Positions 3,243-7,715 of a stretch of DNA of 64,000 nucleotides are shown in pieces. This DNA is from Fimbriimonas sp. Its GTDB lineage: Bacteria > Armatimonadota > Fimbriimonadia > Fimbriimonadales > Fimbriimonadaceae. A program made the position numbers and the translations under genes. Location of the stretch: contig JARXAE010000016.1 of NCBI GenBank assembly GCA_029866005.1, positions 1 to 64,000 of the forward strand, given 5' to 3'. The notes beneath the pieces are model-generated. The model saw nothing but the letters and a program-made list of their open reading frames with translations, was not told the origin of the DNA and did no database searches. Numbering within the stretch: position 1 is the first letter of the stretch; every line of letters begins with the position of its first letter.

Positions 3243-3776
3243 TTAGTCGATCTTGACCTTTGGCCTGGAAGCGGGAGCAAGATCTGGGCGAGGCACTGCA
3301 AACGTGGTGCCACCTGAGCCCCAATAGCGGAGCTTGTCGCCTGTGATCTGATAGGTTCCAGTCATTCCGGTCTTATCGAATTCGCCATAAAGTCGAAAGA
3401 TGCCCATTCCGTTATAGCGCGCAGTCAAGTCTCGCCCGAACCACTGGATTGCCTTGAACGTTCCGTCGACAACAATTCGCCCTTGACCGTGGTAGAGCAC
3501 TCGCTCCCGATCTTTATTGTCGTACTCTTTTCGGATATTGCCAGCAATCTGGATCGGTGCGTTGGGCTTGTATCCAACGAGCAAAACCGTTCCCTTAAAA
3601 TTCATTTCAAGTTTGCCGTATGCGTTTCGCTCCCCCGGGCTAACAATCTTGAAGCTACCTAGAGCAGCCTTCAAGACGATCTCGCCGGTGTCTCCCGCAG
3701 GCTTTGCGGCAGGAGTTTGTGGCGCTGCAAAAGCAGGAAGGATCAAGAGTGGGAGAATAGAAACTCGAAAATTCAT
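3243..3776 (-). CDS. Secreted protein of unknown function
   Basis: This 177-residue product starts with a plausible signal peptide (MNFRVSILPLLILPAFA, cleavage near AFA-AP). The mature part is rich in beta-strand patterns (GKLEMNFKGTVLLVGY, GRIVVDGTFKAIQWF, GIFRLYGEFDKTGMTGTYQI). It is reminiscent of the OstA-like or lipocalin-like exported proteins common in this kind of genome, but I do not recognise a named family. It is transcribed just ahead of the RNase H-like gene (2-bp gap) and diverges from ccmE with 75 bp between starts. Confidence 0.7.
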   Translation of the reverse strand: MNFRVSILPLLILPAFAAPQTPAAKPAGDTGEIVLKAALGSFKIVSPGERNAYGKLEMNFKGTVLLVGYKPNAPIQIAGNIRKEYDNKDRERVLYHGQGRIVVDGTFKAIQWFGRDLTARYNGMGIFRLYGEFDKTGMTGTYQITGDKLRYWGSGGTTFAVPRPDLAPASRPKVKID

Positions 3777-3851: not shown

Positions 3852-4259
3852 ATGTCGGACAAGTCTCCGGTACCATTAGTTCCAGCTATGCGCGGTTCCA
3901 CGATCCTTCCCGTCCTGATTTCGGTCGTCGCGATCGGAGTCGTTGTGGCTGTCTTCAGCCAAGGCGCGTCACCCTACATAACCGTCGCCGAAGCCCGCAA
4001 CCTCTCCTCAGATCGGCTGAACCTTGGTCTTGATCTCGACAAAAAGTCTATTTCAAAAAGCATCAAGTCGGGTGCCATCGAGTTCGATGGCAAGGATAAG
4101 AACGGGGAGAAGATTCACGTTATCTACAAAGGGGATCCCGTGAACAACCTAGACCAAGCAGATCGAGTAACCGCCATCGGTAAGCTTGACGGAGACAATT
4201 TTGTTGCTGAGCAACTGCTCACCAAGTGCCCAAGCAAGTACGAAGCCGAAAAGAAGTAA
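3852..4259 (+). CDS. ccmE: Cytochrome c maturation heme chaperone CcmE, CxxxY type
   Basis: CcmE carries heme covalently in the periplasm and hands it to the CcmF lyase in System I cytochrome c maturation. The 135-residue protein has an N-terminal membrane anchor (about 15-37) and the OB-fold pattern of the family (SGAIEFDGKDKNGEKIHVIY, GDPVNNLDQADRVTAIGKL, FVAEQLLTKCPSKYE). The classical heme-attaching histidine in the HxxxY motif is replaced by Cys126 in CPSKY, i.e. CxxxY as described for Desulfovibrio and some archaea. Only ccmF follows, after 3 bp; ccmA, B, C, D, G and H are not in the window. The start could also be the ATG at 3888, but the family length favours 3852. Confidence 0.88.
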   Translation: MSDKSPVPLVPAMRGSTILPVLISVVAIGVVVAVFSQGASPYITVAEARNLSSDRLNLGLDLDKKSISKSIKSGAIEFDGKDKNGEKIHVIYKGDPVNNLDQADRVTAIGKLDGDNFVAEQLLTKCPSKYEAEKK

Positions 4260-4262
4260 AAA

Positions 4263-6650
4263 ATGGACAAGGATGCCCAGTTAGCCCAGCTCGCCAACGC
4301 CCCCGTCTGGGGCAATATTCTCGGTGCAGTTGGACGCTACAGCATCATTCTTGCCCTGTTCGGTTTTGTCCTGGCGATTGTCTTTAGCATCAAGGATGTT
4401 GCAAAGCTGCGCAGACTCTCTTTCGGGACAGCATGCATATTTGTGATCGTCGCGTTCGGCACGCTGATCAGCCTCTTCCTCACCAACCAGTTTCAGTTCA
4501 AATACGTTGCCGAGCACAGCGAATCGATCAACCCTCTGATCTACAAAATCTCCGCCCTTTGGACTGGCCAGCAGGGCAGCTTTCTGCTCTGGGCGTTCTG
4601 GAGCGCAATCTGCGCAGGTCTCACCTTCCGTCGAGCTCAAGGGCTTGAGCGAGGCTACACCGCCATCTGGTCGGTCATCCTTGGCCTACTCGCCGGAATT
4701 CTCACTCGCGAAACTCCCTTCCAGCTGATAGAAGAAGTAATCACGACGAAAGGTGTCATCAAAATGCCTTTCGACGGAAACGGCATGGTGCCGACGCTCC
4801 AGAACTACTGGAACAACATCCACCCTCCCGTTGTCTTCTTCGGTTTTGCCTCGCTCGCGATCCCCTTCTGTTATGCCATGGCCGGAGTTCTCCACAAGGA
4901 CACAACTGAGTGGGTTAAGCTCACGCGCGGTCCGGTCATTTTTGGACTCACGATCCTGGGTGTTGGCATTTCCTTAGGCGGTTTATGGGCCTACGAGACG
5001 CTCAACTGGGGCGGTTTTTGGGGCTGGGATCCTGTCGAAAACGTTTCGCTTGTCCCATGGCTGTTCCTCGTTGTGCTAAGCCACGGCATCATCATGCAGA
5101 CGACTCGGAAGAAGTGGGTCAGCACGAATGTGTTTCTTGGCGGACTTCCTTTCATCAGCTTTGTCTATGGGACATTTCTGACCCGAAGCGGTCTCTTAGA
5201 CAAAGTCAGTAACCACAGCTTCGCCCAAATGGAGCGTGGGGCACTCCAAATTCTGCGAACTGGCATGTTCGCGATGATGATCGCCTTCGTGGCGGCGTAT
5301 ATCATCACCCTTCGTCGCCAGCCAAAGACGGAGAACCGCCAACCTGAACCCGGCGTCAATCGAGAAACCTTTTATCAAATGGGCATGCTCAGCCTCTGCC
5401 TTCTTGCTTCGGTGATCGCACTGGGAATGAGCTGGCCAGTCATTACTGCATTAAGGGGCGGCGAAGGCGCCCGGGTTGAGGAGGCTGTTTACCACCGAGC
5501 CCTAATTTGGTTTTTCGTGCCGATCATGATCGCGATTGCCGTTGGCCCTATCGCCAGTTGGAAGCGCGAGCAGATCAAGTCTCTGACCAGCCGCTTGGTT
5601 GTCCTCCTCAGCGTCAGCCTCGGCCTCGTCGGAGCTTTGCTGATCATCTTCAAGAACGAGAAGTTTGGGGTTCGGATCACCCCCGGCGCAACGCTCCACA
5701 CCCCGATTCAAGGCTTCGACATTCCACTCGTTCTGGGAATGGCGGGAATCATGTTCCTGGCCATCTTCCCCGCGCTCACCAACCTTTGGCGAGCGATCGA
5801 GCTATCGAAGCGCTCCAAGCTCGGAACCGGCCCATTCATCTCCCACTTCGGAATCTGCCTCCTACTCGGTGGGCTCCTTATCTCGCGTGGTTTCGAACGA
5901 GAGGCAGATATTACTGTCACCACCCAAACCCCTGGGGAGGGAATCGGTTACAAGGTTGCCTTCAAGGAATATGATTGGAACAAGCGAACCGATCGTAACA
6001 ACCGCGTCAAGTTCGAAGTGACGGATCCAGACGGTCATCAGTTCGAAATCGCCCCAACGCTCTTCTATCACCAAATGGGGGGTCCGGAGAGTCCTGAGAA
6101 CGCGCAAGTTTGGCCTTACATCGTCCAGACCTTTAGCCACGATCTGAACTTTGCGATGGGCGAGCCGGTCGTCGAATTCTTTAAGCCTGCAATGAACCTC
6201 AAAGAGGGAGAGACGAAGACCCAATCAAGCGTCACAATCAAGCACCTCAAGTCAACCAATAATGGCAAATTTGGTCAAGCCGGGGCTGAGTTTGGTGCAG
6301 TACTAGAAATTAGCTACGAGGACAGAGGGGAGTTGAAGAAGTTCAATGTCAATCCAACTCTTAAACTCACCGAAGGTGGGCTTCAGCCGTCACTTCATCC
6401 AGCAGGAGATTTCCAGGTCGCCTTAGAATCGATGAACGCAAACGACAAGTCAGTAAACGTTCAGTTGTACGTCAACCCACCGTTCTTCCCCATCAAGCTG
6501 TTCTACAAGCCTCTCACATCTTTGGTCTGGATCGGAACTGGTGTGTTCCTGATTGGCGGTCTGATGAGTGCGGCAAACCGAAGGCTTAAACGGTCTGCCA
6601 TAATAACAACCGAGAACACGAATGCGTCTGTCCCAGCTACTGAAGGCTAA
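4263..6650 (+). CDS. ccmF: Cytochrome c-type biogenesis heme lyase CcmF
   Basis: CcmF joins heme to apocytochrome c CxxCH motifs in the cytoplasmic membrane. The 795-residue protein is strongly hydrophobic with about 15 predicted helices. It contains the tryptophan-rich WWD domain (WGGFWGWDPVENVSLVPWL, residues ~247-265) that holds periplasmic heme, and FGFASLAIPFCYAMAG ahead of it. A large periplasmic segment (about 530-750) precedes the last helix, and the length is slightly above the usual 630-700. It follows ccmE by 3 bp and overlaps panD by 29 bp, so the three genes are probably one transcript. Pairing with a CxxxY CcmE suggests the alternative heme-transfer chemistry. Confidence 0.93.
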   Translation: MDKDAQLAQLANAPVWGNILGAVGRYSIILALFGFVLAIVFSIKDVAKLRRLSFGTACIFVIVAFGTLISLFLTNQFQFKYVAEHSESINPLIYKISALWTGQQGSFLLWAFWSAICAGLTFRRAQGLERGYTAIWSVILGLLAGILTRETPFQLIEEVITTKGVIKMPFDGNGMVPTLQNYWNNIHPPVVFFGFASLAIPFCYAMAGVLHKDTTEWVKLTRGPVIFGLTILGVGISLGGLWAYETLNWGGFWGWDPVENVSLVPWLFLVVLSHGIIMQTTRKKWVSTNVFLGGLPFISFVYGTFLTRSGLLDKVSNHSFAQMERGALQILRTGMFAMMIAFVAAYIITLRRQPKTENRQPEPGVNRETFYQMGMLSLCLLASVIALGMSWPVITALRGGEGARVEEAVYHRALIWFFVPIMIAIAVGPIASWKREQIKSLTSRLVVLLSVSLGLVGALLIIFKNEKFGVRITPGATLHTPIQGFDIPLVLGMAGIMFLAIFPALTNLWRAIELSKRSKLGTGPFISHFGICLLLGGLLISRGFEREADITVTTQTPGEGIGYKVAFKEYDWNKRTDRNNRVKFEVTDPDGHQFEIAPTLFYHQMGGPESPENAQVWPYIVQTFSHDLNFAMGEPVVEFFKPAMNLKEGETKTQSSVTIKHLKSTNNGKFGQAGAEFGAVLEISYEDRGELKKFNVNPTLKLTEGGLQPSLHPAGDFQVALESMNANDKSVNVQLYVNPPFFPIKLFYKPLTSLVWIGTGVFLIGGLMSAANRRLKRSAIITTENTNASVPATEG

Positions 6651-7051: not shown

Positions 7052-7489
7052 ATGTTGAAGTTGCAAAGACTCATCCATTTGGTGCTCTTCCTTGCGCTGG
7101 CGATCTGCCAGGTGCCGGGGAGCGTGGTTGGGGGTCGATGCGAGATGGCTTGTTGCAAGCCGGAAATTACCGCCGAGAGACAACTTCAAGAGAAAAACAG
7201 TTGTTGTTGCGCATCGATCGTTGTCCACAAACATGTCGATAACGATGCGGCAAGTTCAACTCCCGTCAGCGGGGATGTTGAAAGCGTCGCAATCTCAGAG
7301 CCAATTCGAATCCTTCCATCTGGTGCGGTTCTTCGAAGCCAAGAGCCGATTCCTCACGCCCAGGGTCCACCTGGGCGAGGAGTTGTCTGGCTCCCGCCAA
7401 CTCGGGCCCCACCCGTTTCCTGGCGAACCGACTCGTCAACGGTGCCTTGTTGCACCCATTCCCAAAAAGGAAACAGAAATCATGCTTAA
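7052..7489 (+). CDS. Small exported Cys-rich protein, unknown function
   Basis: From ATG 7052 the frame encodes 145 residues with a clear signal peptide (MLKLQRLIHLVLFLALAICQ). Cysteine pairs and triplets follow (CEMACCKPE, NSCCCAS, VPCCTH), plus a proline-rich WLPPTRAPPV segment. Paired cysteines in an exported protein suggest metal or thiol chemistry, but no family is recognised. A TACACT hexamer at 7042-7047 lies four bases before the start and there is no Shine-Dalgarno, fitting a leaderless mRNA. The frame is open upstream to 6977, but those residues precede the signal peptide. Its stop overlaps the start of the next Cys-rich gene (cATGctTAA arrangement). The frame could also be fortuitous; the signal peptide argues against that. 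Confidence 0.55.
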   Translation: MLKLQRLIHLVLFLALAICQVPGSVVGGRCEMACCKPEITAERQLQEKNSCCCASIVVHKHVDNDAASSTPVSGDVESVAISEPIRILPSGAVLRSQEPIPHAQGPPGRGVVWLPPTRAPPVSWRTDSSTVPCCTHSQKGNRNHA

Positions 7490-7715
7490 CACAATCAAAC
7501 TGGGCGCTATCGCCCTCCTCCTCGTCGTCACCACCGCCGGTATCGCACAACACGCTCCTACCCAGAAGCCTGGCAAGCCAGCCTGCTGTGCAAAGGGATC
7601 CTGCTGCAAGGACAAGAAGTGCAAGAAATGCGCAAAGTGCAAGATGTGCAAGTCCGGAAAGTGCGATGCCAAGAACGGTAGCTGCTGCGCAAAGGGCGGC
7701 TGCTGCGCTAAGTAA
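7482..7715 (+). CDS. Small exported Cys/Lys-rich protein, possible metal-binding
   Basis: This 77-residue protein has a signal peptide (residues 1-22, TAGIAQ) and a 50-residue mature part. The mature part holds 13 cysteines spaced among lysines, in units such as CCAKGSCCKDKKC, KKCAKCKMCKSGKC, GSCCAKGGCCAK. The repeated CC and CxxC spacing resembles metallothionein-like metal binding; this is inference. The start ATG 7482 is backed by an AAGGAAA Shine-Dalgarno and lies within the last codons of the preceding Cys-rich gene, so the two are coupled. A strong terminator follows at 7739-7770. Confidence 0.75.
   Translation: MLNTIKLGAIALLLVVTTAGIAQHAPTQKPGKPACCAKGSCCKDKKCKKCAKCKMCKSGKCDAKNGSCCAKGGCCAK

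Follow-up and report, generated by a model that had tools for sequence, protein, structure and literature searches.

A cysteine-type CcmE and the System I* cytochrome c maturation genes of a Fimbriimonas genome

Introduction

Near the start of the 64,000-nucleotide stretch of Fimbriimonas sp. DNA that we analyzed (the window), a gene resembling ccmE encodes cysteine where textbook CcmE proteins have the histidine of the HxxxY heme-attachment motif. Is this protein a working heme chaperone, and which cytochrome c maturation pathway does it serve?

A pathway with a cysteine-type CcmE has already been described. This variant, named System I*, is reviewed in a 2011 article that cites Allen et al. 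2006 and Goddard et al. 2010 (PMC3601427). The review reports System I* from delta-proteobacteria, Chloroflexi, and Firmicutes and names CPSKY as the motif in most bacterial genomes with the variant (25 of 36). It also describes holocytochrome production in E. coli from a Desulfovibrio operon that lacks both CcmH and CcmG (PMC3601427). Within the open-licence literature, we found no published work on Ccm proteins in the phylum to which Fimbriimonas belongs, Armatimonadota.

Results

CcmE has cysteine at the heme-attachment position

The ccmE reading frame (Table 1) is open from its ATG start to a TAA stop, and its protein ends in LLTKCPSKYEAEKK. The match to PF03100 scored 44.7 bits, above the curated cut-off of 24.6, while the score against the stricter NCBIfam CcmE equivalog model fell below its cut-off (32.2 versus 126 bits). 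The only cysteine of the protein is residue 126, the only histidine is residue 89, and the three tyrosines are residues 42, 92, and 130. The original prediction of a CcmE with CxxxY replacing HxxxY was thus correct, the motif being C126-PSK-Y130.

Table 1. Features of the window and related genes elsewhere in the genome
Feature	Position	Strand	Basis or description
ccmE	3852..4259	+	Cys-type OB-fold heme chaperone, 135 aa, membrane-anchored; PF03100 E 1.8e-11
Predicted N-terminal membrane helix of CcmE, residues 15-38	codons 3894..3965	+	secondary structure of predicted model
Heme-attachment motif C126-P-S-K-Y130	codons 4227..4241	+	sequence, alignment to E. coli His130, model
ccmF, synthetase subunit	4263..6650	+	795 aa; PF01578 E 1.9e-21, PF16327 E 1.3e-20
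Frame upstream of ccmE	3243-3776	-	177 aa
Cysteine-rich frame	7092-7715		
ccmA, ccmB, ccmC	L006:6221-8209		contig C1
ccmC	L006:6221-6964		contig C1
Second PF03100 protein	C11:114889-115125 (L002:1417-1827)		136 aa

In the predicted model of CcmE (mean pLDDT 82.5), a helix (residues 15-38) precedes a beta barrel, and the C-terminal tail is loose. Judging from CcmE biology, the helix would be the membrane anchor, so that helix and barrel together would form a membrane-anchored OB-fold domain. CPSKY sits in the tail, right behind the last barrel strand (residues 116-124). When the model was compared with solved structures using Foldseek, the best match was CcmE from the E. coli CcmABCDE complex (8ce8_E), and the top six rows (E 1.5e-4 to 5.6e-3) include 8ce8_E, 1sr3, 1j6q, 1lm0, and 2kct. 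In alignments made with a profile of 14 CcmE proteins of the phylum, the counterpart of Cys126 in E. coli CcmE is His130 (8ce8_E, E 8.2e-12); in D. vulgaris CcmE (2kct, E 1.6e-9), the KCP stretch lies at this position. His130 is named as the heme ligand of the E. coli protein (PMC9084895). The fold and the position of the heme residue are therefore those of canonical E. coli CcmE (8ce8, 1sr3), but cysteine stands where E. coli has histidine.

By analogy with characterized relatives, Cys126 would bind heme, probably by forming a thioether with a vinyl group, and Tyr130 would be the likely ligand of the heme iron. Alternatively, Cys126 could be a non-covalent thiolate ligand only, in which case heme would be passed on without bond breaking. 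Such binding via cysteine is reported for the CcmE of D. vulgaris (2KCT), a solved relative of the window protein, in a 2013 review (PMC3884852). However, covalent binding is reported for D. desulfuricans CcmE (PMC3601427), and a 2022 paper describes a Methanosarcina CcmE that is positive on heme staining and requires its cysteine for heme attachment (PMC9084895). Whether cysteine-type CcmE binds heme covalently is thus disputed in papers on different Desulfovibrio species, and we consider the non-covalent reading improbable for the window protein.

The cysteine is kept across the phylum

All five motif residues are invariant in two alignments of CcmE proteins (14 of 14 and 39 of 39 rows), so CPSKY is neither a chance occurrence nor a sequencing error. 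As the 39 rows were found with a pattern containing KCPSKY and the 14 rows were likewise chosen by motif, the fair test of cysteine conservation is a third set of 90, found with the Pfam model. PF03100 matched in 198 of the 291 genomes of the phylum, the window's own included. From the matches listed, we examined the motif at one locus in each of 90 other genomes, taking the 30 best-scoring and 60 hand-picked across families. Cysteine was present in all 90 and histidine in none: 79 read CPSKY, seven CPSRY, three CPTKY, and one CPSKE. The last of these (locus L097, genome G215) is the sole CcmE of the 90 that has lost the motif tyrosine.

A further 18 CcmE rows, comprising seven new genomes, six second copies from genomes in the set of 90, and five repeats, all read CPSKY. 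Altogether, the cysteine was found in 103 of 103 CcmE copies and the tyrosine in 102, from 97 other genomes; these make up about half of the 198, with the weakest-scoring matches outside this half. The second copies come from six genomes of one family (L188, L189, L190, L191, L192, and L193). Four of the six have no ccmF directly downstream, as counted with a narrow distance.

Beyond the phylum, the pattern [LQ]xKCPSKY[EQ] matched at least 594 stretches in 84,980 species genomes, and 508 of these encode a relative. Because the pattern itself contains the motif, this search demonstrates spread and cannot reveal exceptions. Among the best 80 of the 508, Armatimonadetes and Fimbriimonadaceae are on top, and lower rows include Selenomonadales, Zixibacteria, Eisenbacteria, Calditrichota, Bacteroidota, Acidobacteria, Herpetosiphon, and a Desulfovibrio. 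The original prediction that this lineage uses a variant is supported, with the qualification that the variant is not special to the lineage, being the rule across the phylum and found beyond it. The ccmE gene is ordinary for its phylum.

ccmF is next door, and ccmABC are on another contig

The ccmF gene begins 3 bp downstream of ccmE. Its product carries WGGFWGWDPVEN starting at residue 249, and residues 21-609 match Thermus CcmF (6zmq_A, E 3.8e-42). Four histidines, in HPPVV, LSHG, SNHSF, and ISHF, align with histidines of the Thermus protein; we take these to be heme ligands. In other genomes of the phylum, ccmF lies directly downstream of ccmE in at least 64 of the 90 loci, a lower bound because the count relied on frames taken from stop to stop and allowed little distance between the two genes. 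A tblastn search of plasmids with CcmF returned 218 distant records, every one below 60% identity.

Two neighboring frames are without Pfam or NCBIfam matches. One, upstream of ccmE and divergent from it, has a signal-like start. The other has a very cysteine-rich C-terminal part (CC and CxxC repeats) and is possibly metal-binding.

The original prediction left the completeness of the pathway to genes outside the window. We found ccmA, ccmB, and ccmC adjacent and on the same strand of a separate contig, so the genome encodes CcmA, CcmB, and CcmC as well as CcmF. Its CcmE, CcmB, CcmC, and CcmF score below the curated cut-offs of the corresponding NCBIfam models, and CcmA falls just under its own (124.7 versus 131.6). 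Thus, all Ccm parts of this genome are divergent. CcmC retains the histidine that in alignment corresponds to E. coli CcmC residue 60 and reads WGAWWQNDPRQ, in which N replaces the second W of the WWD motif, just before D. CcmC relatives with a readable motif mostly have NWD or similar, and some Bacteroidota rows read TNDPKL.

No match to CcmD was above cut-off in this one genome. A candidate within a 555-aa frame (E 0.19) was dismissed as noise, since 13 of 14 control genomes also match at the same loose limit. For CcmG (TIGR00385), there were nine thioredoxin-like matches, none above a cut-off that just 2 of 14 controls exceed. The genome also encodes a 621-aa DsbD (contig C23) and has ten frames with a match to PF13442, a family of cytochromes; nine of them contain CXXCH.

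Neither an HxxxY CcmE nor System II is found

Either a second CcmE with HxxxY or the presence of System II would have counted against the variant pathway; we looked for both and found neither. The genome has no HxxxY CcmE. Its second PF03100 protein has a signal-like N-terminus, passes the PF03100 cut-off, and has a weak PF01336 match; ending in KLKILGK, without cysteine, histidine motif, or tyrosine, it was rejected as a heme chaperone. We regard it as an OB-fold relative, one that an automated pipeline might wrongly name CcmE. A search with PF05140 for ResB, the System II component, gave no match in the genome (5 of 14 controls were positive), and System II was rejected as the route of cytochrome c maturation here.

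These results bear on the possibility that ccmE is degenerate or repurposed and that another system matures the cytochromes c. Loss of the textbook histidine and the low scores against NCBIfam models would fit this reading. However, the frames are intact, the motif cysteine is kept in every copy read across the phylum, and the neighboring ccmF encodes the four conserved histidines; moreover, CXXCH proteins are present in a genome that has no ResB and no other CcmE. We consider a degenerate CcmE very unlikely.

In the phylum as a whole, ResB was matched in 59 of 291 genomes, many of the matches being weak. Most of the strong matches come from genomes in which no CcmE was matched, G059 and G230 being among the exceptions. 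The phylum thus seems to be split into users of System I* and users of System II.

CcmH is absent from the assembly

Canonical System I combines an HxxxY CcmE with CcmH, which is essential in E. coli (PMC3601427). A search with PF03918 gave no CcmH match in the window's genome, which is 97.19% complete, and gave matches in four control genomes. CcmH is also absent in the original description of System I*; according to the 2011 review, its absence is not required, as about one third of bacteria with a cysteine-type CcmE possess CcmH (PMC3601427). The original prediction counted missing ccmH as support for the variant. The gene is indeed missing, but its absence is weak evidence because of that one third and because both proteins co-occur in three genomes of the phylum.

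At 97.19% completeness, a CcmH or CcmD gene may be hidden in an assembly gap. Could the pathway be a System I whose CcmH was overlooked, through divergence or such a gap? In three other genomes of the phylum (G003, G004, and G006), a single contig does carry both CcmH and a cysteine-type CcmE. Nevertheless, the model silent here was positive in four control genomes, and it detected CcmH in just 4 of the 291 genomes of the phylum. An overlooked CcmH is therefore unlikely, though a little less so than a degenerate CcmE. In the fourth genome (G136), whose CcmE is cysteine-type, the CcmH (L194, contig C7; E 3.1e-49) lies on a contig of just 3,044 bases and is possibly a contaminant or part of a second Ccm system.

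Discussion

Our data support assignment to System I*. The proposal that this lineage uses the variant pathway is borne out by ccmABC on another contig and by the absence from the assembly of CcmH, ResB, and an HxxxY CcmE. We are confident that the window CcmE serves as heme chaperone in a complete System I* pathway. Points that weigh against this reading are the divergence of all parts, the N in the WWD motif of CcmC, the report of non-covalent binding in D. vulgaris, and the 97.19% completeness of the genome.

Drawing on characterized relatives for every chemical step, we infer that CcmABC would deliver heme to CcmE at the outer face of the cytoplasmic membrane. Holo-CcmE would then pass heme to CcmF, which would attach it to the CXXCH motifs of apocytochromes that DsbD and thioredoxin-like proteins would keep reduced.

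With described System I* pathways, that of this genome shares cysteine in place of the heme histidine, the commonest motif (CPSKY), the CcmABCEF set, and, as in some members, the absence of CcmH. It differs in that ccmABC and ccmEF sit on separate contigs, and D. desulfuricans is reported to have and need ccmD (PMC9084895), whereas no CcmD was above cut-off here. The Methanosarcina CcmABCEF set likewise has a CxxxY CcmE, no CcmH, no detectable CcmD, and genes outside a single operon (PMC9084895). However, that archaeon has CcmF1 and CcmF2, while this bacterium has one full-length CcmF (795 aa). A 2015 study of archaea (PMC4429474) reports CcmH from one archaeon only.

A single aspect stands out: how widely the minimal CcmABCEF set is spread among bacteria. 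The 2022 paper labels this set Archaea-specific and places CxxxY in archaea and "a few bacteria" (PMC9084895). Set against that phrase, the presence of the cysteine in every copy read in one phylum has modest comparative value, and matches to the KCPSKY pattern reach many further phyla. Much of a bacterial phylum may mature its cytochromes c with CcmABC, a cysteine-type CcmE, and a stand-alone CcmF, with no CcmH and perhaps no CcmD; we judge the case for this evenly balanced, and its CcmD part draws on one genome, the window's own. If true, the minimal machine titled Archaea-specific would be an established solution in bacteria as well, where CcmF could serve as the synthetase on its own. Culturable members could be used to study heme attachment by CcmF in the absence of CcmH and the release of cysteine-bound heme.
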